Shown here: in pieces, positions 4,167-16,576 of the stretch
Numbering within the stretch: position 1 is the stretch's first letter
Layout: each line of letters opens with the position of its first letter
Origin: an uncultured beta proteobacterium
GTDB taxonomy: Bacteria; Pseudomonadota; Gammaproteobacteria; Burkholderiales; Burkholderiaceae_C
Direction: 5' to 3'
NCBI GenBank assembly: GCA_903894475.1
Contig: CAITQH010000021.1
Location: forward strand, 1-33,103
DNA length: 33,103 nucleotides
Notes under the pieces: model-generated
What the model saw: only the letters and a program-made list of their open reading frames with translations
Databases searched by the model: none
What the model was told of the DNA's origin: nothing
Made by a program: the position numbers and the translations under genes

Positions 4167-6263
4167 TTATCCAGGCAATCGGTTCGCATTCACCGGCAAT
4201 GTCATGGTCACGCAGGCGCCTGCATCGTCGGCATTGACAATGCTCAGGGTGCCCTGGTGCTTGGCCATGATGTTGCGGGAGATCGACAGCCCCAGCCCCA
4301 AGCCGGTGCTCTTGGTGCTGAAAAACGCGGTGCCGACCTGTTCCAGGTTCTCGGGCGTCAAGCCCGGACCAGTGTCGGTGATGCTTAATTGCACCTGTTT
4401 TTGCGTCGTGTTGATCTGAATCTCGATCACGCGATGCCGGACCTGTTGCAAGGCCTCGATGGCGTTACGCAGGGCATTGAGAAGCACCTGAGAAAGTTGT
4501 ATCACATCCCCTTGCACCAGAACCGGGCTGTCGGTCATCGCGAACTTGACCAGCACTTGATGCTGACGGATATCCACTTCCATCAAATCAAGGGCGTCAA
4601 GCACCACTTGCTGCAAATCCACTACCAGGTGCTGCGCCTGGCTCGGGCGAATGAAGGTACGTATCCGCTCGATGATGTCGCTGGCGCGCCGGGTGTTGTG
4701 GATGATTCGCTCAATCAACTCCCCGACCTGGGCCGTCTCCAGACGACCGCTGCGCAAGCCCCGCTGCATGACCTGTGCGTTGGTCAGGATAGCGGTCAGC
4801 GGCTGATTGAGTTCATGCCCGAGTGAGGCCGACATCTGGCCCAGACTGCGTTGGCGATCAAGCTGGACAAGCTGATCGGTCAACCGTCGCCCCTCTGTTT
4901 CCAATTCGCCTCTGCGGCGTTTGTGTTCGGAGATGTCACGCGTCACGCCGAGCACCTCGAACATACCATCCTCATTCACCATCGGATACGCCATGACTTC
5001 GGTCCATACTGTGGAGCCGTCTTTGCAGCGGTATTCGAGCTCGCCCCGAAAAGTTTGCGGTTCTGCACCAGCAGCCAGGTCAACGTGTAATTGCGTGAAA
5101 TATCCGATGCTAATGGCTTGGGAATCGGGGGTCAGGGTCTCCTCAATGGTTTGTTGCATCGCCTCCATCGGGGTGAACCCGCGCACGGCCATGACAGCCG
5201 GGCTGACATAGGTAACGCTGCCGTCGGGCGCCATGGTCCAGATCACATCCCGGGTGTTGTCGGCCAGCAGCCGAAGTCGATGTTCGCTTATGCGCAAGGC
5301 ATCCTCAGCCTGTTTGCGAGGGGTGATGTCTTCCTTCACTGCCAGGTAGTGGCTGACCACGCCGTCCTCATCGGCAATCGGTGCAATGACGGCCCATTCA
5401 TGGTAAAGAGAGCCATCTTTTTTGCGATTCACGAGTTCGCCTTGCCACTCCTGGCCAGCAGTTAGGGCATCCCATAATTCCCGATAGGTACTGAACTTTG
5501 TCTTGTCTGACTTCAGTATCCGTGGGTTCTTCCCGACCACCGCATCGAATGGATAGCCGGTGACTTTGCTGAAGCTCGGGTTGACATATTCGATGTTGCC
5601 GGCCAAATCCGTGAGCACAATGGTGGTCGGGCTTTGCTCAACCATGCGCGTCAACTTTCGCAATTCGATCTCGACCTGCTGGCGTCGCGCGATTTCATCG
5701 TCGGCCCGCGCCAGCGCCCGAAACACCAATCTGTTGCTGTAATACACCGCACTGGCGGTCATTCCAAATAGCGCCGTAAAGTTCATCCATTGCGTGATGC
5801 CAACGCTGTAGTTCGGCTTGGGCAAGAGGCCAGCATTCTCAGCCAGGATCAAGCCCATCACTGCCAGCGAGCTTGCAATGGTGGCAAGCACAATGCCGGG
5901 CAGCTGAAACAACATGCCGACCAGAATCACCCAAAAGACATAGATCGACGCCGTCGGTGTCCGGATGGTCCCCAAACTGATGTTCGCTGCCGTTAGAAAG
6001 ACAAAAAAGAGGGTGGTCAGGGTGAATGCGACAAAGGTGACTCTGCCGCTGTGCAGTATTCGGCGAATCGACAAGAGCACGGCAAACCACAAAATAGCGA
6101 TGACCAGTGCACCGATCGGGACGTTGTTGCCAAGCACGACGCCGATGATGATAAGCACAGTCAGCAACAAATTAACGGTAATGGCCCCATTTATCAGCTC
6201 AGCGTGGCGCGTCTTTTCTTCATCACCTTCAAAAAGAGGTGACGCGAACCAGCGTCTGATCAT
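4167..6263 (-). CDS. Membrane-bound PAS-PAS sensor histidine kinase (FixL-like)
   Basis: From the ATG at 6263 the protein has 698 residues. Several hydrophobic segments (for example VNLLLTVLIIIGVVLGN and ASIYVFWVILVGMLFQLPG) fill the first 190 residues, so it is an inner-membrane sensor. Two PAS domains with PAC motifs follow (MVEQSPTTIVLTDLAGNIEY; LLADNTRDVIWTMAPDGSVTY). The kinase core has H-box GHELNQPLTAILTNAQ, N-box LLNALRNAIEALQ, G1 ITDTGPGLTPENL and G2 GLGLGLSISRNI. The HELNQPL H-box is typical of FixL/DctB-type kinases. I see no evidence of a heme-binding PAS. The ORF-track start (6296) is a TTG; a GTG at 6272 after GGGGGA is another option. It converges on the FixJ-like gene, its likely partner. 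Confidence 0.9.
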   Translation of the reverse strand: MIRRWFASPLFEGDEEKTRHAELINGAITVNLLLTVLIIIGVVLGNNVPIGALVIAILWFAVLLSIRRILHSGRVTFVAFTLTTLFFVFLTAANISLGTIRTPTASIYVFWVILVGMLFQLPGIVLATIASSLAVMGLILAENAGLLPKPNYSVGITQWMNFTALFGMTASAVYYSNRLVFRALARADDEIARRQQVEIELRKLTRMVEQSPTTIVLTDLAGNIEYVNPSFSKVTGYPFDAVVGKNPRILKSDKTKFSTYRELWDALTAGQEWQGELVNRKKDGSLYHEWAVIAPIADEDGVVSHYLAVKEDITPRKQAEDALRISEHRLRLLADNTRDVIWTMAPDGSVTYVSPAVMAVRGFTPMEAMQQTIEETLTPDSQAISIGYFTQLHVDLAAGAEPQTFRGELEYRCKDGSTVWTEVMAYPMVNEDGMFEVLGVTRDISEHKRRRGELETEGRRLTDQLVQLDRQRSLGQMSASLGHELNQPLTAILTNAQVMQRGLRSGRLETAQVGELIERIIHNTRRASDIIERIRTFIRPSQAQHLVVDLQQVVLDALDLMEVDIRQHQVLVKFAMTDSPVLVQGDVIQLSQVLLNALRNAIEALQQVRHRVIEIQINTTQKQVQLSITDTGPGLTPENLEQVGTAFFSTKSTGLGLGLSISRNIMAKHQGTLSIVNADDAGACVTMTLPVNANRLPG

Positions 6264-6381
6264 GTCTATCACATGCGTCCCCCAGTTTGTTGCCAACGAA
6301 CAAGTTTACGCTCCACCGGTTGACGGGATAGCTTGTGCCTTATGGTCGAGTTGCAAAGAAATGACTCTGAGCGCGTCGGAT

Positions 6382-8358
6382 TTACCTGGTGACAATGGCA
6401 AAGGTGCCGGTGGCCTTGTCAATCAGGCTGAAGAAACGGATCAGGTCGATCTTGCTGCCGCCGATCTTGAGATCGTCGCTCAGCAGGGTGTCTTTCACAC
6501 CCGCAGTACCCGCCATCATCTTGACAAAGATCGGCTTGGTCAGCGTCAGAGTCGCATTGGCGTTGTCTGCCGGGTTAGCCTTCTTGAAGTGCAAAACCGA
6601 ATTTTCAATCCACAGCACAAAGGACTCCTGACTGTCCGAGAACACCAGATTGATTTTGAGGTCCTTGCCCTCAGCCGCCGGACCATCCAGACCGGCAGCC
6701 ATGGCTTCCAGAAAGCGCTCGATCGGGGTTTGCGACAGCATGTCTACAAAGTAACTGCGATCAACCCCCTTCTTTGGCGCTCCGCTGCGCAGTTCAAGCG
6801 CTGCCGTCAGATAGCTGTTGCGCCAGGTTGATGCCTCGGACATATAGCCCATCTGGTCGTACGTCTTGGCCAGCAGTTCCTTGGCGCCTTGGTGCGCAGG
6901 ATCGCCAAAGACGACTTGGTCGAGCAGTTCTGCCGCCCAGCGATAGTCACCTTTGTCAAACGCGCTCTGGGCCGCAGCAACCGTCTTGTCGACGCCTCCC
7001 ATGAGTTCCAGATAGCGCTTGGCAGACTCCTGTGCCGGCAGCGGGTTGAGATGGGCTGGGTTGCCATCGTAGGCGCCCAGGTAGAACTGGTAGACCGCCT
7101 TCACGTTGTGGCGCAGGTCGCCGTAGTAACCGCGGGCGCCGAAATGTTCCGACAGTGACTTTGGCAGTTTGACCGTCTCTGCGATGTCGCGTGGGGTGTA
7201 GCCTGCGTTCATCAAGCGAACCGACTGATCGTGCGTGTACTTGTAGACGTCGCGGTGCTTGGTGATGAATTCGGCAATGCGCGCGTTGCCCCAGATGGGC
7301 CAATTGTGTTGACCCACATAGATTTCAGAATCACCCAACTGATCGAGCGCCTGCTGCATGTACTGTGACCAGCGCAAGGCATCACGCACCTTGGCGCCAC
7401 GCACCGGCAGCAGGTTGTGCATGGTCTGTGTCAGGTTCTCCGCGCCGCCGTAGAGTTTTTTGTCCGGGATCGAGAACGTCATTTCGGCCGGTGCCTCGGC
7501 ACCTGGAACATTGTGAAATACAAAGCGCACACCGTCGAGCAGCAGTTCTTCGGTGGGTTTACTGATGATCTTGTTGGGCGCCAGGATGCCGAAGCTGCCG
7601 TAAGCCGTCTCGCGGCCGATCCCGACATCAACAAAGCCCTTGGCTGTGCGTTCCAGGTTGCGTCCGGTCTGGTAGACCGATCGCCGACCCATCGCCGTGC
7701 CGACCATGATGTTTTCGCTGGTGGCCTCTTCCATGAAGCCTTCAGAAGCAACGACAGGAATCTTGCGCGCCGCAACCTCTGCGGCTGTCACAACACCCAG
7801 GGCGCCGCCAAAGTGGTCGATATGGCTGTGCGTGAAAATGATGACCGATACCGGCTTTTCACCCAGATGCTTGGCGACGAAGGCCAACGCTGCTGTGGCG
7901 CTTTCGCGCGCAGTCAGGGTGTCGATAACAATCCAGCCGCTCTTGCCCTCGACCAGGGTCATGTTGGCCATGTCAAAGCCACGCACCTGGTAGACACCGT
8001 CCGTTACCTTGAACAGGCCCACCTGCGAGTCAAGCTTGGCATGGCGCCACAGACTCGGGTTGACCGTTGCCGGCGCTGGCCCGTCGATGAACTTGAAGGC
8101 ATCGAAGTCAATCAGGGTCTGGCCAGTGGAGTCGACGATCTTGCCCTCGGGCTTGGCGACCAGCCCTCGTTTGGCATCTTCGAAGTCCTGTTGCTCATCG
8201 AGTCTGAGGTCTTTGGCAAACTGGGCGTTGACCTTCAGCGTTTCGGGCATCGCGTCTCCCGCTGCGCCACCTACGCCGGCAGTCTTGCTGCAGCCGCCTG
8301 CCAGGATAAGCAGCGCCGCCAGGCACAGTGTCTGGGATACATGAATCAGTTTGTTCAT
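6382..8358 (-). CDS. Alkyl-sulfatase-like metallo-beta-lactamase-fold lipoprotein
   Basis: The 658-residue protein has the order of SdsA1/BDS1-type alkyl sulfatases. A metallo-beta-lactamase domain carries THSHIDH at residues 176-182 and the conserved GGAENLTQTMHNLLPVRGAK. It is followed by an alkyl-sulfatase dimerisation region (HNWPIWG onward) and an SCP2-like C-terminal domain (last about 120 residues). The family hydrolyses primary alkyl sulfates to an alcohol plus sulfate using two zinc ions. The N-terminus is a lipoprotein signal (LCLAALLILAGGC, Cys23), so it should be anchored in the cell envelope facing the periplasm or outside. The start has a good ribosome site (AAGGAG). It lies 42 bp downstream of a GMC alcohol dehydrogenase in the same direction, which could oxidise the released alcohol. 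The exact substrate cannot be read from the sequence. Confidence 0.88.
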   Translation of the reverse strand: MNKLIHVSQTLCLAALLILAGGCSKTAGVGGAAGDAMPETLKVNAQFAKDLRLDEQQDFEDAKRGLVAKPEGKIVDSTGQTLIDFDAFKFIDGPAPATVNPSLWRHAKLDSQVGLFKVTDGVYQVRGFDMANMTLVEGKSGWIVIDTLTARESATAALAFVAKHLGEKPVSVIIFTHSHIDHFGGALGVVTAAEVAARKIPVVASEGFMEEATSENIMVGTAMGRRSVYQTGRNLERTAKGFVDVGIGRETAYGSFGILAPNKIISKPTEELLLDGVRFVFHNVPGAEAPAEMTFSIPDKKLYGGAENLTQTMHNLLPVRGAKVRDALRWSQYMQQALDQLGDSEIYVGQHNWPIWGNARIAEFITKHRDVYKYTHDQSVRLMNAGYTPRDIAETVKLPKSLSEHFGARGYYGDLRHNVKAVYQFYLGAYDGNPAHLNPLPAQESAKRYLELMGGVDKTVAAAQSAFDKGDYRWAAELLDQVVFGDPAHQGAKELLAKTYDQMGYMSEASTWRNSYLTAALELRSGAPKKGVDRSYFVDMLSQTPIERFLEAMAAGLDGPAAEGKDLKINLVFSDSQESFVLWIENSVLHFKKANPADNANATLTLTKPIFVKMMAGTAGVKDTLLSDDLKIGGSKIDLIRFFSLIDKATGTFAIVTR

Positions 8359-8400
8359 ATGAAGTGCTCCTTGTCTTCCGGTTTTTTTGTTGGACGGTTA

Positions 8401-10005
8401 TCACTGGCCTGCACGAATCAACTCGGCCGCTTTTTCCGCAATCATGATGGTCGGTGCGTTGGTGTTGCCGCCGATCAGGGTTGGCATGATGGAGGCGTCG
8501 ACCACGCGCAGGCCTGCTATGCCCTTGACACGCAACTGCGCATCAACTACCGCCAGTGGATCGCTGTCCGGTCCCATCTTGCAGGTGCCAACCGGGTGGT
8601 ACTGGGTGTCGGCTCGATTGCGAATATCGCGCGCCATGCCCTCGGGGTCATCAAGCGCAGCCGGGTAGAGCATCTTGCCGCGGATCGAATCAAAGGGCCT
8701 GGATTCAATGATGCGCTGTTGCATCTGCCCGCCTTTGACGAGCAGATGAAGATCGCGCTCATCGGCGAGGAACTTCGGATCAATGCTGGGCGCAACGCGG
8801 GGGTCTGGACTGTTCAGCGTCACGACACCACGGCTGTAGGGACGTAGCACGTCGACGTGGCAGGATATGCCGTGGCCCAGGTGCATGGTGCGTGCGTGGT
8901 TGTCAACGATGGCGATCACAAACACCAGTTGCAGATCGGGTATGGCCACCTCAGGTGAGGATCGCATGAAGGCGCCGGCAGTCGCGATCGAACTGGTGAT
9001 TAGGCCGGAACGCTTGCCGCGCCATTGCAACATGGCATTGGCCAGCTTGGCAGACCCGCGCAAGGACACGCCAATGGTGTCGGTATGGCTGGGTACACGC
9101 CAGGTTTGAACGTAGTCGATGTGATCCTGCAAATTCTTGCCTACACCCCACAGGTCTTTCACGACCGGGATGCCAAACTTTTGCAACTCATGGGTGGCAC
9201 CAATACCGGACAGCATCAACAACTGAGGTGAACCGAACGCACCGGCGGCCAAAAGTACTTCACGACGCGCACGTACCTGCTCGAGATGGTTGCCCTGGTA
9301 GTAAGCCACGCCGCGGGCGCACTTGCCTTCGATCATCACTTTCGCCGCTGTTGCCTGGGTGACGACCGTGAGGTTGGGACGTGAAAGATTGGGTGTTAGA
9401 AAGCCCTTGGCTGCGCTGCATCGTTCGCCGTTTTTCTGCGTGACCTGGTACAGGAAGGCGCCATCCTGCTCGGCGCCGTTGTAGTCCGGATTGAGTGCAA
9501 GTCCATTCAGCTGTGCTGCGTCCAGAAAGAGCTTGTTGACCGGGCTGGCGTGGTTCTGGTAGGTGACGTTGAGCGGTCCGCCCTGACCATGAAAGCCATC
9601 GACAAACTGTTCGTTGTTTTCGCTGCGCTTGAACAGCGGCAACACGTCGTCATAACGCCATCCGGGGTTGCCCAAGGCGGCCCAGTGGTCATAGTCCCAC
9701 GGGTTCCCACGCACATACAGCATGGCATTGATGGAACTCGAGCCGCCCAGCGTCTTGCCGCGTGGCTGGTAGCCGCGACGACCATTCAGACCCGGCTGCG
9801 GCACCGTCTCAAAAGCGTAGTTGTTGATCCTGGTGGGGACCATCGCCACGACGCCGACTGGGGCGTGAATCAGCACGCTCTTGTCGGGTCCTCCGGACTC
9901 CAGCAAGCAGACCGTGACACCAGGATCCTCACTCAAGCGCCCTGCCAGCACACACCCGGCTGAGCCAGCGCCGACCACCACGTAGTCAAACTCCATACTT
10001 GACAT
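8401..10005 (-). CDS. GMC-family FAD alcohol/choline dehydrogenase
   Basis: The 534-residue length fits the GMC oxidoreductases. The FAD-binding start is [20 protein letters not shown] (GxGxxG at residues 12-17). The second GMC signature is around [19 protein letters not shown]. The C-terminal catalytic region has [10 protein letters not shown] with the active-site histidine and [19 protein letters not shown]. The nearest described members are choline dehydrogenase BetA and the alcohol dehydrogenase AlkJ. With no betaine gene nearby and an alkyl-sulfatase gene directly downstream, an AlkJ-like role on aliphatic alcohols is the better inference. The start is supported by GGAG seven bases upstream. 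No signal peptide is visible, so it acts in the cytoplasm or at the inner face of the membrane. Confidence 0.92.
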
Positions 10006-10451: not shown

Positions 10452-10601
10452 AATTTCGGCTCTGCGCCTTCGGTTGAAAAGCCCCAAGCGCAATCCGCGT
10501 CGTTTGAGGTGGGCAGGTCAACACATGATGTCGAAAACGCAAGCCCATCACTGCGTCCGAGCAAGGCCGCAGAAGCCAAACGGCTGCTCAGGCTGTTTCA
10601 C

Positions 10602-11576
10602 TCAATCCACCTTCGCGCCAGAAGCCTCTACAGCCGCACGCCAGCTCTCCGTGTCTCGGCGCACAAAATCAGAGAACTCTTGAGGAGTACCTCCGACAAC
10701 TTCAAGGCCTTGGCCAGCCAGGTTGCTGCGTAGTGCCGGGTCTGCCAGCGCCTTGCCAATTTCAGAGTTCAGCCGAGCAATCGTTGTCGCTGGCGTGCCT
10801 GCCGGCACCATGATGCCCTGCCATCCCACCGCTGCATAATCCTTCAGACCAGCCTCTGCCATGGTAGGCACGTCGGGCATCACAGGTGATCGTGTAGCGC
10901 CAGTGATCGCCAACGCTCGGACCTTGCCAGCCTTGACGTACGGCACCGCCGTGACCAAGTCGTTTGAGAGAACTTGAACATCCTTTCCAAGAAGTGCGCT
11001 GAGTGCCGGTGCCGCGCCCTTGTATGGAATATGCGTCATTGAAATGCCAGCTCGCAACTTGAACAACTCAACTGCCAGATGCGGGAAGGTTCCGTTGCCC
11101 GCCGATGAGTAATTGAGCGCGCCCGGCTGCCTTTTCGCCAGCGCAATCAGTTCAGCCAAATTCGCCACCTTGACGTCTTCTGCCACCAGAAGCAGGTTCG
11201 GCACCTTTACCATCAAAATGACCGGGGCGAAGGCGGCAGCAGTATCGTAGGGGAGCGTTTTGTAGAGACTTGGGTTGATGGCGATATTGGTGTTGGCAAA
11301 CAACAGCGTGTGCCCGTCTGCAGGTGCCTTTGCGACCGTGTCGGCACCAAGAATTCCGCCGGCCCCGGCTTTGTTGTCGATAACCACTGGCTGACCCAGG
11401 GCAGAGGACAAGCGAGTGCCAATCGTGCGCGCCAGGACATCGGCTGAGCCGCCGGGTGGGAAAGGCACAACGATGCGTATCGGTTTGAAAGGAAAGTCCT
11501 GGGCCGTCGCCGTAACGCAGGCCAATGCCATGCAGGCACCGATCAAATACTCGATCAAACGCACGACAAACTTCAT
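10602..11576 (-). CDS. TctC/Bug-family periplasmic solute-binding protein
   Basis: From the ATG at 11576 the protein is 324 residues, the usual Bug length. A signal peptide (LIGACMALACVTATAQ) is followed by the family signature IRIVVPFPPGGSADVLAR. IDNKAGAGGILGADTVAKAP, IPYKGAAPALSALLG and the ending of the TctC fold follow. The family binds small carboxylates, either for TctAB transporters or as extracellular sensors. No tctA or tctB gene is present in the window, so this is an orphan. The longer ORF-track start (11834) is rejected because GGAG precedes 11576 by eight bases and its ATG overlaps the upstream hydrolase stop (ATGA). The tight coupling suggests it binds the substrate or product of that hydrolase; the ligand is unknown. 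Confidence 0.92.
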   Translation of the reverse strand: MKFVVRLIEYLIGACMALACVTATAQDFPFKPIRIVVPFPPGGSADVLARTIGTRLSSALGQPVVIDNKAGAGGILGADTVAKAPADGHTLLFANTNIAINPSLYKTLPYDTAAAFAPVILMVKVPNLLLVAEDVKVANLAELIALAKRQPGALNYSSAGNGTFPHLAVELFKLRAGISMTHIPYKGAAPALSALLGKDVQVLSNDLVTAVPYVKAGKVRALAITGATRSPVMPDVPTMAEAGLKDYAAVGWQGIMVPAGTPATTIARLNSEIGKALADPALRSNLAGQGLEVVGGTPQEFSDFVRRDTESWRAAVEASGAKVD

Positions 11577-13264
11577 GATTGTTCTCCTGCTTGCGGAATA
11601 ACTGGCAACAATAAATAGGACTCGAAGGCGCCGCCAAAATGCAGGGTATGACGGGTCAGAACTGGGTTGCAGGTATGCACCCAGATCGGATCTTCTGCTG
11701 TCGAGTCTTGCCCCCGGATGTCCAGGGCAAGACAATGCCCCTTGCGGAACAAATTTGACACTTCCCGAATCTCCATTGCATAAGCGTAGCTTTGACCCAT
11801 CGTCAATTGCTCCTTGCCGCTGTGTCTTTGCCAAGGTCGAAAAGGTGTCGATTTTTCGGCATCAAGTTCCCGCTGCGAAGCCCGCAGCCATCCCTTGGTC
11901 AGAGTACGTGAAGTGCCATCGGGTGCCAGGTCGCGCAGGGTGACAATCCAGGTTGCGTCGGGCTGGTCCAATGTTGCATGAAAATTCAGCATCACCGGAC
12001 CAGTCACCTCGACGTCGGCGGTGAAGGGCTCGGTCAGAAACGTCACAGCAGGCGGCAGTTGGCCGGGCGGCAGGTCGGGGTTGTTCAGGAGCTCGACGGC
12101 GTCGGAATGATCCTGCTGCTTGCGGGAAAGTGAACCGTGTGAGCCCAGGTAGAACCTGGTCCACGCAGTGCGCGCCAGCGGCCACTCGTTCTCGAAACGA
12201 TACTCGCCACTGCCCTTGATCAATAACTGGATCGGCGGCTCATCCATGAAGCCTGTATCGTTCCCCTTGAGCCAATGGTCATACCAGCGCAGAATCAAAT
12301 CATGATGGTCGGTCCAGGGGCGCAGTGGGCCAAGACGCGACTCCGTCTCCATCACCAGCAATTTCTTGGGGGCGGTGATACCTTCGTAGGCTTGAAATGC
12401 ACCAGCCAGATGCACAGCCCAACTGGTCCAGCGCGTGACCAGGAAAGTAGGGATGCGGATCCTGTCAAACATCCGATATGGCGAACGTTCCCAATAGAAC
12501 GGGCCATCAAACGGCTCCAGCATCCAGCCGAAAAGTAGAGGGTTCTTGTTCGGATATTTGAGTTGAATATGCAGATAAGGAGAATTCTGCACCTCTGGTG
12601 TCTGCATCAACGCCGAGACACGACGATCAATCTCATGCTGGGGCAAGTAGTCGTAACTCAATGGGCGCATGCCGTCCACACTCACATGACCCCACCACTG
12701 GTGCCAGAACCCCTCATTGAGCAGTCCGCCGTGGTAAACGCTTTGCCGATAGCGATCGGTCAGCGCCTCGTAGGGAACGATCGCTTTAAGATGAGGTGGC
12801 TGCTGCGCCGCCACCATGTATTGCATCACTGCGAAATAAGACATGCCCAGCATGCCGCAGTTGCCGTCGCACCAAGCCTGCTCGGCCATCCACTCAATGA
12901 TGTCGTAACCGTCTTCCTGCTCCTTGGGTCCCTGGTAACAGTACTCACCCTCCGAATCGCCCGAGCCACGTGCATCGGCGATGACGTGAACGTAGCCGCG
13001 GCTGACAAAGTATTCCGAATCGCCTGCTTCGAGTCCGCCATTGCCTGCCAATGGACTGAGTGGCGATCGTTTGTCGGAAATGCGTTGCAGATCCTTGCCA
13101 TAGTGAGAGTAAGACAAGAGGGCCGGATAGCGGCCAGGCTCGTCAGGAAGATAGACGTCGCAGGCCACACGGGTGCCGTCACGGGTCCGAATCATGACGC
13201 CCCGCTGCACAGACATACCGTAGGCCGGTTGGGATACTTTGCTGTGCCAGTCCTGTGCAGTCAT
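11573..13264 (-). CDS. CocE/NonD-type serine hydrolase (S15-like)
   Basis: The 563-residue protein has the two-part build of CocE/NonD hydrolases: an alpha/beta-hydrolase domain and a C-terminal jelly-roll domain. The nucleophile elbow is GMSYFA (Ser142). The acid motif region is ADARGSGDSEGEY, and a conserved histidine lies in the TDHHDLILRWYDHWLKG stretch. C-terminal PPAVTFLTEPFTADVEVTGP is typical of the beta-domain. Members cleave esters (cocaine esterase), amides or acyl-amino acids. The start at 13264 has GGAAG five bases upstream; the ORF-track start at 13291 is a GTG with no ribosome site. No signal peptide, so cytoplasmic. It is translationally coupled to the TctC gene and divergent from a MarR gene with a shared operator candidate. 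Confidence 0.88.
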   Translation of the reverse strand: MTAQDWHSKVSQPAYGMSVQRGVMIRTRDGTRVACDVYLPDEPGRYPALLSYSHYGKDLQRISDKRSPLSPLAGNGGLEAGDSEYFVSRGYVHVIADARGSGDSEGEYCYQGPKEQEDGYDIIEWMAEQAWCDGNCGMLGMSYFAVMQYMVAAQQPPHLKAIVPYEALTDRYRQSVYHGGLLNEGFWHQWWGHVSVDGMRPLSYDYLPQHEIDRRVSALMQTPEVQNSPYLHIQLKYPNKNPLLFGWMLEPFDGPFYWERSPYRMFDRIRIPTFLVTRWTSWAVHLAGAFQAYEGITAPKKLLVMETESRLGPLRPWTDHHDLILRWYDHWLKGNDTGFMDEPPIQLLIKGSGEYRFENEWPLARTAWTRFYLGSHGSLSRKQQDHSDAVELLNNPDLPPGQLPPAVTFLTEPFTADVEVTGPVMLNFHATLDQPDATWIVTLRDLAPDGTSRTLTKGWLRASQRELDAEKSTPFRPWQRHSGKEQLTMGQSYAYAMEIREVSNLFRKGHCLALDIRGQDSTAEDPIWVHTCNPVLTRHTLHFGGAFESYLLLPVIPQAGEQS

Positions 13265-13319
13265 ATTTGCTTCCATCAAGAGGTTTACCACGCCGAATTC
13301 GGCTGGAACGCTTCAGTTT

Positions 13320-13349
13320 AGGATAGAGTTCGATGGTTGTAATAATCAA
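13320..13349 (-). promoter_or_regulatory. Candidate promoter of the hydrolase-tctC operon
   Basis: On the minus strand TTGATT (13349-13344) and TATCCT (13325-13320) are separated by 18 bases. The -35 lies inside the palindrome at 13332-13354, so a bound MarR protein would block polymerase. Each hexamer matches consensus only moderately. Confidence 0.35.
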
Positions 13350-13354
13350 CTATC
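13332..13354. promoter_or_regulatory. Candidate MarR operator, site A
   Basis: Inverted repeat GATGGTTG-N7-CAACTATC, arms 8 bases with one mismatch, in the divergent gap between the CocE-like hydrolase and the MarR gene. The same architecture and nearly the same arms recur at 13972-13994. MarR proteins usually bind such palindromes near their own gene. Confidence 0.65.
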
Positions 13355-13384
13355 ACAGGTAGAAACCCGCAGTCTGCCAAGCAA

Positions 13385-13903
13385 ATGTCGCTCCAAGCGC
13401 CGAAACGGCTGGATGAATTATTGAATTACCGGCTTGCACGTTTGCTGGCCAAGAGCAGCGCACCTGGAATCAGGCTGTTCGAAGGGAGATATGGTGTTTC
13501 AAGGCGTGAATGGCGATTGGTGGGTCTTGTTGCAGTTTATGGCGCGATGTCTCCGTCAGATCTGGCAACCCTGGCTCACCTGGATCGCCCATGCGTTTCC
13601 CGGGCCATTACGGAGTTGGTTGAAAAGGGATTGCTGGTGCGTGCTGGCGTTCCAAACGACGGACGTCGAGCCCAGGTCGACATTACCCGCAAAGGCAAGA
13701 AGCTGTACGAAGTGGTGTTGCCGCAGGTAGTGAGCATCAACAATGCCGTGTTGGGGGTCCTTAACTCTGATCAGCTGACCGAACTCGACAAGATTCTTGA
13801 CTTGCTTACCCAATCCGCCGAAGAGGTAGTGCGCTCGTCTCCCGTGATTGGAGAGGGTTCACGTCACATTGGCGGTCTGCGTTCGATGCCGGACTTGAAC
13901 TGA
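13385..13903 (+). CDS. MarR-family transcriptional regulator
   Basis: The 172-residue protein is a typical MarR winged-helix dimer. N-terminal and C-terminal helices (RLDELLNYRLARLLAKSS; LNSDQLTELDKILDLLTQSA) flank a DNA-binding core: MSPSDLATLAHLDRPCVSRAITELVEKGLL, then the wing NDGRRAQVDITRKGKK. MarR proteins usually repress neighbouring genes until a phenolic or other small ligand binds. It is divergent from the hydrolase-tctC operon and upstream of the DUF6351-like lipoprotein gene. Matching palindromes in both control regions support it as the local regulator. It carries an extra 25-residue C-terminal tail. A GTG/TTG start upstream is not needed, as the family N-terminus is complete. Confidence 0.9.
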   Translation: MSLQAPKRLDELLNYRLARLLAKSSAPGIRLFEGRYGVSRREWRLVGLVAVYGAMSPSDLATLAHLDRPCVSRAITELVEKGLLVRAGVPNDGRRAQVDITRKGKKLYEVVLPQVVSINNAVLGVLNSDQLTELDKILDLLTQSAEEVVRSSPVIGEGSRHIGGLRSMPDLN

Positions 13904-13971
13904 AATGGTCTTGACAGATCTTGACGCCCGTGAAGGAGCCTTTGTTCCACAGACAGCGGGTTTGTACGTAG

Positions 13972-13994
13972 GATAGTTGTTTTGTACAACGATC
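13972..13994. promoter_or_regulatory. Candidate MarR operator, site B
   Basis: Inverted repeat GATAGTTG-N7-CAACGATC, arms 8 bases with one mismatch, 71 bp upstream of the lipoprotein start. Spacing and arms match site A at 13332-13354, giving consensus GATRGTTG-N7-CAACNATC. Confidence 0.65.
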
Positions 13995-14011
13995 GCATTC
14001 CGTCCTAGACT
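13982..14011 (+). promoter_or_regulatory. Candidate promoter of the DUF6351-like lipoprotein gene
   Basis: TTGTAC (13982-13987) and TAGACT (14006-14011) are 18 bases apart. The -35 is inside the operator candidate at 13972-13994, consistent with repression by the MarR protein. Hexamers are moderate matches. Confidence 0.4.
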
Positions 14012-14064
14012 GAAGCGTCCGCATCGAATTTGATGTGGATGACTATTATTACAAAGGAGACATA

Positions 14065-16422
14065 ATGGAAATGCGCAATTCGCGACTCCGTTTGGCGTTC
14101 AGCAGACCGGTCGTTTTTTCAGTCGGACTTGCACTCCTGACAGTCGGGGTGCTGACCGCTTGCGGGGGCAGCGATCCGATTCCCCCTGTAGTTGCACCTA
14201 CCCCCACCCCGGTACCCGTCGTTTCAACGCCAAGCGTCTCGGTACTGTCGTCGCTGGCGCACCGCGTCAGTGGTGGCAGTGCACTCGTGGATATCGCCAT
14301 GCCCGCGAATGCCACGGCGTCAGATGCCTTGGTGGTAACCGCTAACGGAAAAGACGTGACCTCGATCTTCAAGGCAAGCGCTACAACGGGCCATCTATCC
14401 GGCCTGGTGACCGGACTCGCGGCTGGCGATAACGCACTGGTGGCCAAGGTCGGCAATTCCGCTGCAGCCACGGTGACCTTGACCAATTACGGCATTGCCG
14501 GTCCGGTTTCATCCGGGCCATACGTTACCCCCTTCATCTGTCAGACCAGCACATTGGCCTTGCCGGATGGGACCAAACTGGTGGCCACGGCAAATGACCC
14601 CAATTGCTCGGCTGCGACCAATGTTCAGTATCAGTATCGGACGACAGCTGAGGTCTACAAGACATTGACTGACACCACGAAGATTCCGACCGATGTGAAG
14701 ATGATCAAGAACGCAGCTGGGGCGTCTGTTCCGTACATCGTGCGGGTGGAAACAATGACCATCGACAGAGGTATCGCTCAGATCACCATCCTCTTTGATC
14801 CCACGACGGACGTAGAGCCTACCCCGGCAACGCCTCCGAAAAACTGGAACAAACGCCTTGTCTACGGCCACGGAACTGGTTGCATGGCCGGTTGGTTCAT
14901 TCAGGGTGGTGTCTGGGGCTATAACCCGATGAATGACACTTGGCTTTCACGCGGATACGCAGTGGCCAACAACACCTTGAACCACCCGACCAATAGTTGC
15001 AATCAAGTGATCTCCGGCGAAGCTGCCGTGATGACCAAAGAGTATTTCATCAAGCGTTTTGGAGCTCCGGTTTATACGATTTCTACAGGAACTTCTGGCG
15101 GCTCGATCGCAAGCGTGCAATTGGGTGATATGTTCCCGGGGCTTTTTGACGGTGCGCTTGTCGATGCCAGCTTCCCCGATGTCATCACGATTGCGCAATC
15201 AGCGACTGATGCGCATTTGCTGTCCAACTACTTTGCCAGCACTTCTCCATCTGCCGCTTCGTTCACATCCCAGCAGAAGGCATTGGTTTCAGGCTACGCC
15301 GCAGAAATAACGATGGTCGCGGCTGGCAATCAAATGGGGCGCACGGATCCGGTACCGGGCCGTCTGGCACCAACTTTTGCTGGCGTTGGAAATTACGCAT
15401 CGGCCGTCTGGAATGCGGTGGTGCCAGTGTCCCTGCGCTACGATCCAAACGCCACGCCGCCAAATTTTGCTGGTGCTAGACCCACAATTTACGATATCGG
15501 TGTCAACGTTTACGGCAAGGGAGTGAATCCACTCGACCCCTCCGGCAAGACAACCATCGGTTTACGCACTTTTGACAACGTCGGCGTGCAATACGGGCTG
15601 TCAGCACTCAATGCGGGTGCCATCACGGCTACACAATTTCTGGACATGAACGCCAGCGTTGGTGGCTTTGATACCGATGCCAATCCGGTCACTAAACGTA
15701 GCGTCGGAAACGACGGGGCGATCTTGCGCGCAAACCAGGCTGGCTTGCTGCTTAGTGCCAGCGCAGGCCTTGCGTCTATTCCGGTTCTTGACGTTACCAA
15801 TATTTATGCGGAAGACACCAGTAATTACCATTTGCAGTGGGAGCACTTTGCGGTGCGCGAACGGTTGATCCAGTCCAATGGAAACGCAGACAACTATGTG
15901 ATGTGGCGTGGTGGCCCCGGTACCGGTGCCACCACAGCCAATCCTGCCGCGCCTATTGCAGCGCTTAGCACCAATGCTATTGCTGCCTTCGAAAAATGGA
16001 TGGAGGCCATCCTTGCGGACAAGTCGGCAGACCTTCAGCGGACCAAAGTTATCCGCAACAAGCCGGCCGACCTGGTTGACGGTTGCTTTGACAAGTCGAC
16101 GCCCCCGCAATTCATTGCGGAGAAGCAGACTTTAGGTACGAGTGGAACGCAGTGCAATATCTTGTGGCCTTCGTACCGTTTTCCGCGCATGGAAGCGGGT
16201 GGTTCGCTGGCGTCCAACAATCTGAAATGCCAGCTCAAGCCTGTGGACCTCGCAGACTACAAGTTGTCCTTCAGCTCTGCCGACTTGAGCCGCCTGCGCG
16301 CGACATTTCCTTCAGGCGTGTGCGATTTCAGCAAGCCGGGTGTGAATTTCACCAAAGTAGTTCCGTGGGCTTCCTTCGGCCCGTCGAAGGTCAACCTGGT
16401 GTTCGACATCACCGCGCCTTGA
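14065..16422 (+). CDS. DUF6351-like alpha/beta-hydrolase lipoprotein
   Basis: From the ATG at 14065 (AAAGGAG five bases upstream) the protein has 785 residues. The ORF-track start at 14035 has no ribosome site. A lipoprotein signal (LLTVGVLTACGG, Cys33) is followed by a Pro/Thr linker (PPVVAPTPTPVPV). A beta-rich N-terminal domain comes next (about 50-150), then an alpha/beta-hydrolase-like domain with YGHGTGC and the nucleophile elbow GTSGGS (Ser about 344). I think it belongs to the DUF6351 family, recalled rather than searched; another large esterase family, such as 3-hydroxybutyrate oligomer hydrolases, is an alternative. It should act on the outer surface or in the periplasm. It is not a transporter or porin by any visible feature. 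A MarR operator candidate precedes it and a strong terminator follows. Confidence 0.8.
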   Translation: MEMRNSRLRLAFSRPVVFSVGLALLTVGVLTACGGSDPIPPVVAPTPTPVPVVSTPSVSVLSSLAHRVSGGSALVDIAMPANATASDALVVTANGKDVTSIFKASATTGHLSGLVTGLAAGDNALVAKVGNSAAATVTLTNYGIAGPVSSGPYVTPFICQTSTLALPDGTKLVATANDPNCSAATNVQYQYRTTAEVYKTLTDTTKIPTDVKMIKNAAGASVPYIVRVETMTIDRGIAQITILFDPTTDVEPTPATPPKNWNKRLVYGHGTGCMAGWFIQGGVWGYNPMNDTWLSRGYAVANNTLNHPTNSCNQVISGEAAVMTKEYFIKRFGAPVYTISTGTSGGSIASVQLGDMFPGLFDGALVDASFPDVITIAQSATDAHLLSNYFASTSPSAASFTSQQKALVSGYAAEITMVAAGNQMGRTDPVPGRLAPTFAGVGNYASAVWNAVVPVSLRYDPNATPPNFAGARPTIYDIGVNVYGKGVNPLDPSGKTTIGLRTFDNVGVQYGLSALNAGAITATQFLDMNASVGGFDTDANPVTKRSVGNDGAILRANQAGLLLSASAGLASIPVLDVTNIYAEDTSNYHLQWEHFAVRERLIQSNGNADNYVMWRGGPGTGATTANPAAPIAALSTNAIAAFEKWMEAILADKSADLQRTKVIRNKPADLVDGCFDKSTPPQFIAEKQTLGTSGTQCNILWPSYRFPRMEAGGSLASNNLKCQLKPVDLADYKLSFSSADLSRLRATFPSGVCDFSKPGVNFTKVVPWASFGPSKVNLVFDITAP

Positions 16423-16513
16423 GTCGCAGTTTCCTGACTTTGTCTGGATTGACTGAGTCAGGAAGCCATCGCACGAAGGGCTAGCTATTGGGTCCTTCAC
16501 CGAAGTTCCATAG

Positions 16514-16543
16514 AACCCACAACTTTGCCGTTGTGGGTTTTTT
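16514..16543 (+). terminator. Rho-independent terminator of the lipoprotein gene
   Basis: AACCCACAA and TTGTGGGTT form a perfect 9-bp stem with an 8-base loop, followed by TTTTTT-type sequence (GGGTTTTTTATT). It lies 91 bp after the lipoprotein stop. On the minus strand the tail is poor, so it acts mainly in the plus direction. Confidence 0.9.
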
Positions 16544-16576
16544 ATTGAACACGAGTCGATGAAATCGCCGCACCAA

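Follow-up and report, generated by a model that had tools for sequence, protein, structure and literature searches.

Most TTT binding proteins, TphC among them, are encoded at a distance from TctAB (PMC8556258, PMC5812351). BctC of Bordetella acts as the sensor partner of a histidine kinase (PMC5812351), and a report on arylmalonate decarboxylases describes an orphan TctC with these enzymes in beta-proteobacteria and full systems in other groups (PMC4996985). The stretch of DNA analysed here (33,103 nucleotides of contig CAITQH010000021.1, assembly GCA_903894475.1, from an uncultured beta proteobacterium of freshwater type; hereafter the window) carries a tctC gene next to genes for a CocE/NonD-type hydrolase, a MarR-family regulator and a DUF6351 lipoprotein. 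We consider it fairly probable (about 0.6) that region 10562-16554 is a self-contained catabolic cassette combining MarR-repressed surface hydrolysis, capture by TctC, uptake through a borrowed TctAB pair and internal hydrolysis; its role is probably feeding on an acid-bearing ester or amide. A literature search for CocE together with TctC returned nothing relevant, and among 5.39 million papers searched in full text, one mentions DUF6351.

Gene content and conservation of the cassette

All four genes named in the preliminary description of the window are present (Table 1); the range it assigned to them, 11573-16422, covers the hydrolase, MarR and DUF6351 genes and omits nearly all of tctC (10602-11576). 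The window and locus L031 share a continuous 80%-identical match containing exactly the four genes and a terminator, and their flanks are unrelated. Overlapping open reading frames of 110-410 amino acids, such as 12563-13321 (forward strand), 15601-16110 (reverse strand) and an N-terminal extension of the tctC reading frame, were dismissed as mechanical. No RNA families were detected in the window.

Table 1. Features of the cassette and its predicted regulatory sites (window coordinates).
Feature	Position	Strand	Remarks
Four-gene block	10562..16554		80%-identical stretch common to the window and L031
TctC/Bug periplasmic solute-binding protein	10602..11576	-	signal peptide; PF03401, 247.7 bits; ATG overlaps CocE stop
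CocE/NonD-type hydrolase (peptidase S15 fold), predicted cytoplasmic	11573..13264	-	563 aa; no signal peptide; Ser142 and Tyr55 invariant
Putative -10 (TAAACT), CocE-tctC promoter	13315..13320	-	at every locus 15 nt from the operator; -10 predicted
Operator copy 1 (putative), MarR/CocE divergent promoter	13336..13352	-	palindrome, TAGTTGATTATTACAAC
MarR-family regulator, divergent from CocE-tctC	13385..13903	+	PF12802, 44.5 bits
Operator copy 2 (putative), 5' of DUF6351	13974..13990	+	palindrome, TAGTTGTTTTGTACAAC
Putative -10 (TAGACT), DUF6351 promoter	14006..14011	+	spacing as at CocE; -10 predicted
DUF6351 lipoprotein, tannase-like alpha/beta hydrolase	14065..16422	+	ATG 14065, AAAGGAG upstream; Ser344 and His589 invariant
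Intrinsic terminator 3' of DUF6351	16516..16543	+	strong; 8-bp stem, T6; fold z-score -5.0

To the left of the block, two tandem genes on the reverse strand (6382-10005, 42 nt apart) encode an SdsA-type alkylsulfatase with a lipoprotein-like signal (6382-8358) and a GMC/choline-dehydrogenase-like oxidoreductase (8401-10005), a pair that suggests oxidation of alkyl sulfates or alcohols. Both were considered as members of the system and excluded, since the block shared with L031 ends at 10562 and about 600 nt separate them from tctC. At the left end of the contig (1253-6296), response regulators are clustered with an HD-domain PAS protein and a PAS histidine kinase; the kinase (4167-6296) was discarded as a sensor partner of TctC because of its position outside the shared block. 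No product-catabolising enzymes adjoin the cassette. The genus-conserved RarD was considered as a marker of the empty site, and it has neither the cassette nor the left-flank genes next to it in 14 congeners.

Top-ranking homologues of the window's CocE protein were taken from 85,462 species genomes, and the window genes were then mapped onto the homologue loci. TctC directly follows CocE on the same strand in all nine orthologue loci (68-86% identity), with a gap of 0-81 nt, and in L031 and L032 it overlaps or touches the CocE stop codon; TctC identity broadly declines alongside that of CocE, from 83% to 61%. A MarR gene (49-85% identity) is divergent from CocE at seven of the nine loci and was not found at the remaining two, L037 and L039. 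Nucleotide matches of the window to L032, L033 and L036 start at, or a few bases from, the tctC stop and end inside MarR, which marks MarR/CocE-TctC as a compact unit in varied surroundings. Judged by its gene order in the orthologues, the triad is a genuine conserved unit; it is also carried by a named strain, Limnohabitans sp. Rim28 (L035).

The MarR/CocE-TctC unit is rare (1/301 family members and 1/90 congeners, both times the window genome itself only). DUF6351 adjoins the triad in just one other genome, L031, and is absent from 11 of the 12 genomes with a CocE homologue, which implies that the core works without it. The four-gene neighbourhood proposed earlier, to be given up if the genes failed to co-occur elsewhere, thus survives by half: CocE-tctC with its divergent MarR is conserved, and the missing DUF6351 weakens the reading as a four-gene system.

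Operator and promoter sequences

A MarR-type palindrome, TAGTTGnTTnnTACAAC, has exactly two exact copies in the 5.2-Mb window genome, one in the MarR/CocE promoter and the other 5' of DUF6351. Each of the seven MarR/CocE intergenic regions retains a recognisable form of it, despite drift in the remaining sequence; in these regions its end lies 70-77 nt ahead of the start codon, and a TA(A/G/C)ACT hexamer lies 15 nt past it (7/7). Upstream of DUF6351 it occurs both in the window and in L031. A winged-helix MarR domain and a palindrome in the divergent promoter, the sequence features of a self-acting MarR repressor, are both present, with the binding putative. At the observed spacing from the hexamer the operator would overlap the -35, which makes occlusion by MarR plausible.

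The two matches in the window at up to two mismatches were equalled in none of 100 shuffles. The CocE and DUF6351 promoters align over 69 bp with 52 identical positions, against 32/69 for the next best place in the window, and this similarity looks like the outcome of a promoter duplication. A search of the window genome with an extended pattern gave no site beyond the two copies, and in nine related genomes it returned only MarR/CocE sites and the L031 DUF6351 site, with controls at zero; a short pattern at two mismatches matched the window genome no more often than its reversed control. The extended pattern is strict: the divergent sites of L034 and L035 escaped it, so the regulon may have additional members.

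The copied operator and promoter tie DUF6351 to the single MarR gene around which the preliminary description had grouped it, a connection that amounts to one evolutionary event in two related genomes. By this comparison DUF6351 would be a lineage-specific fourth member added under a copied operator, and the arrangement suggests a route of growth for catabolic modules in which a regulon takes up a new gene along with a copy of operator and promoter.

Two other elements were noted in the intergenic regions. The MarR/CocE region of L034 (L034:2373-2508) carries a second repeat, GGGTATCTACC, twice, and in most loci a GGGTnnnnACC-like element precedes the operator by about 11-12 nt; it may be another site or belong to the MarR promoter.

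The encoded proteins

The CocE/NonD-type hydrolase scores 325.5 bits against TIGR00976 (curated cut-off 66.3) and is composed of Peptidase_S15 (179 bits) and PepX_C (119 bits) domains; its ATG start at 13264 was favoured over the listed GTG at 13291, which is less likely. The nucleophile-elbow Ser142 and the oxyanion Tyr55 are invariant in 19 homologues (L031-L049), as are His178 and His285, and the columns of cocaine-esterase Asp259 and His287 are not conserved in the same set. The protein was therefore assigned to a CocE-like subfamily and not to the cocaine-esterase type. Its nearest solved relative, SACOL2612 of Staphylococcus (3iii/3ib3), also has the Trp-x5-His pattern. Foldseek groups the structural model with cocaine esterase (E 9e-36), although its active-site region (pLDDT <50) is too weak for triad geometry to be judged. 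With the canonical Asp and His columns missing and the model weak at this point, hydrolytic activity is graded as likely.

TctC contains the P-F-x-x-G-G-x-x-D motif of TTT solute-binding proteins as PFPPGGSAD, and its nearest PDB relatives are Bug27 and a terephthalate-binding protein. Its ATG and the TGA of CocE overlap as ATGA at 11573-11576, visible directly in the sequence, so the translational coupling to the hydrolase that had been claimed is plausible. No TctA or TctB, and hence no complete TctABC, was found among the Pfam-scanned window genes. The absence of TctAB, pointed out earlier, is correct for the window and nothing special: the genome encodes 30 TctC and 4 TctA proteins (all TctA outside the window), TctA was found in 9/9 triad genomes, and 17 to 92 orphan TctC per genome were counted in eight genomes. 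As TTT binding proteins mostly lie apart from TctAB, such a gap is ordinary.

Among CocE relatives of 44-60% identity, TctA or DctM is nearby in 6/10, and the association with any transporter weakens among remoter homologues (10/24 at 38-44% identity, 4/36 below). These transporters beside deeper relatives speak most strongly, in our view, for an imported organic acid as the substrate of CocE. Homologues directly beside complete transporters occur in delta-proteobacterial, Chloroflexi and beta-proteobacterial MAGs, with TctCBA at L042:6660-11671 and TRAP systems at L043:2501-9754, L044:860-5626 and L047:9989-14573; their subunits were confirmed by Pfam.

The fourth protein matches DUF6351 (PF19878) over profile positions 1-652 of 655 with 679.9 bits (E 6e-204), above the Pfam gathering threshold. 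A lipobox, LTAC-GG with Cys33, marks it as a lipoprotein, and the serine-hydrolase elbow GTSGGS, likewise noted earlier, surrounds Ser344. All 33 aligned DUF6351 members have this serine; His589 is invariant in the alignment too. A model built from 27 sequences (pLDDT 80.7, pTM 0.84) gave MHETase as the top Foldseek match, followed by tannase and feruloyl esterases (E ~1e-6, probability 1.00), a significant yet loose fit with global TM-scores of 0.2-0.37. This predicted fold supports grouping DUF6351 with the tannase-type esterases, which include plastic- and tannin-cleaving enzymes. The tannase family has a Cys-Ser / His-Cys pairing. In DUF6351 the residue preceding Ser344 is variable, the tannase Cys next to the nucleophile not being conserved, and sequence and profile searches of the PDB gave no convincing match and no solved tannase-family chain; for these reasons the protein was not assigned to the tannases or MHETases.

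TctC lies directly 3' of DUF6351 on the same strand in 5/29 loci of the family (P ~3e-4 at a 2% base rate, with relatedness ignored; the TctC density of those genomes is 1-2%), and TctC directly follows DUF6351 also in two Variovorax plasmids. DUF6351 and CocE thus have independent links to a TctC, and the window lineage joins both. Variovorax and relatives have a recurrent cluster with the gene order DUF6351, TctC, sensor histidine kinase, sigma54-dependent regulator (L117:8157-15180, L125:8014-14730, L133:14752-21669, L134:9746-16602), which looks like a TctC-coupled sensing module of a kind not known to us. One genome has three DUF6351 genes inside 9 kb (L112:1704-10706), and none was found in viral contigs.

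Proposed pathway and known systems

According to the reading that we favour, a single operator palindrome would let MarR repress both its own divergent promoter, shared with CocE-tctC, and the copy at DUF6351, until an inducer releases it; the inducer would probably be the substrate itself or something formed in its breakdown. The DUF6351 lipoprotein, at the cell surface or in the periplasm, would then cleave an ester bond or one of similar kind, TctC would bind a carboxylate-bearing product and pass it to a TctAB pair encoded elsewhere, and CocE would hydrolyse the imported compound in the cytoplasm. That the substrates are esters or amides of one compound class, as first proposed, we infer. 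A bolder formulation is put forward tentatively, at somewhat less than even odds: MarR/CocE-TctC would be an undescribed import-and-hydrolyse cassette for the ester or amide of an organic acid, with a non-canonical CocE triad, to which one lineage recruited a DUF6351 surface esterase by duplication of operator and promoter. On that formulation DUF6351 would gain its first member with a place in a function, namely the outer step in uptake through TctC.

The presence of DUF6351 beside the triad in a single other genome, its absence from most CocE genomes and the occurrence of its relatives in other contexts would fit a functional unit of MarR/CocE-TctC alone, with DUF6351 an unrelated passenger under its own control. 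We judge this quite improbable, since the 69-bp copy of the CocE operator and promoter precedes DUF6351 at equal spacing, the operator is retained in L031, and the four genes form one 80%-identical block between differing flanks. An improbable view, though one to be taken a little more seriously, is that of a detoxification or resistance device in which MarR senses a toxic ester-like compound, CocE inactivates it and TctC and DUF6351 are accessory. Many MarR regulators respond to toxic aromatics, the substrates of CocE-type enzymes include drugs, for example cocaine and beta-lactam precursors, and the distribution of the cassette is sporadic; against this, the tightly conserved solute-binding protein and the complete importers (TTT or TRAP) next to deeper CocE relatives point to uptake, and CocE-tctC has no efflux gene beside it in the window.

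Of greater weight, if still doubtful, is the view that CocE is not a classical serine esterase and that a relocated histidine or another chemistry (amidase, peptidase, acyltransferase) acts on the imported organic acid. It would account for the unconserved Asp259 and His287 columns next to invariant Ser142, Tyr55, His178 and His285, and for the Trp-x5-His pattern shared with SACOL2612, but the retained nucleophile elbow and oxyanion tyrosine speak for the classical type, as does the Foldseek match to cocaine esterase despite the low confidence of the modelled active site. It changes only the last step of the favoured pathway and is compatible with the remainder. Very unlikely, finally, is a TctC that serves mainly as the sensor partner of a histidine kinase and not in uptake. 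BctC provides a precedent (PMC5812351), and the DUF6351-TctC-kinase-regulator clusters exist in other bacteria; the role as a sensor, which the preliminary description had left open, nevertheless receives no direct support here: the scored DUF6351-linked TctC proteins are only 31-38% identical to that of the window, and the window kinase (4167-6296) is not part of the shared block and had no homologue in the vicinity of the nine CocE-linked TctC.

Few orphan TctC proteins have a known ligand, and no function is assigned to DUF6351. Both questions become testable with a cassette that is small, has a defined operator and a binding protein open to ligand screening, and whose core triad is present in a named strain.

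Among described systems, TphC-TpiBA terephthalate utilisation in Ideonella and Comamonas likewise has a TctC-type protein in a catabolic operon and TctAB elsewhere (PMC8556258), and MHETase, the top fold match of DUF6351, is a tannase-fold ester hydrolase. The cassette differs from both in having no terephthalate dioxygenase genes, MarR in place of TphR and an extra CocE-type cytoplasmic hydrolase, and DUF6351 is at the sequence level a different family from tannase and MHETase, with no tannase-family PDB match by profile. In the BctCBA-BctDE citrate system of Bordetella a TctC-type protein also stands beside regulatory genes, but there with a complete transporter and two-component control, where the cassette has an orphan TctC and MarR (PMC5812351). 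Cocaine esterase and other CocE/NonD proteins, as well as SACOL2612, share the Peptidase S15 core, PepX_C domain and Ser nucleophile; unlike cocaine esterase, the CocE protein described here does not conserve the canonical Asp and His columns and is linked to a solute-binding protein. The arylmalonate decarboxylase clusters of beta-proteobacteria similarly combine one catabolic enzyme and an orphan TctC, with complete transporters in other groups, but their enzyme is a decarboxylase and, as far as their description was read, the cassette has in addition a MarR operator and a surface lipoprotein (PMC4996985). A catabolic hydrolase with an orphan TctC is an already known arrangement, and the cassette is a variant of it.
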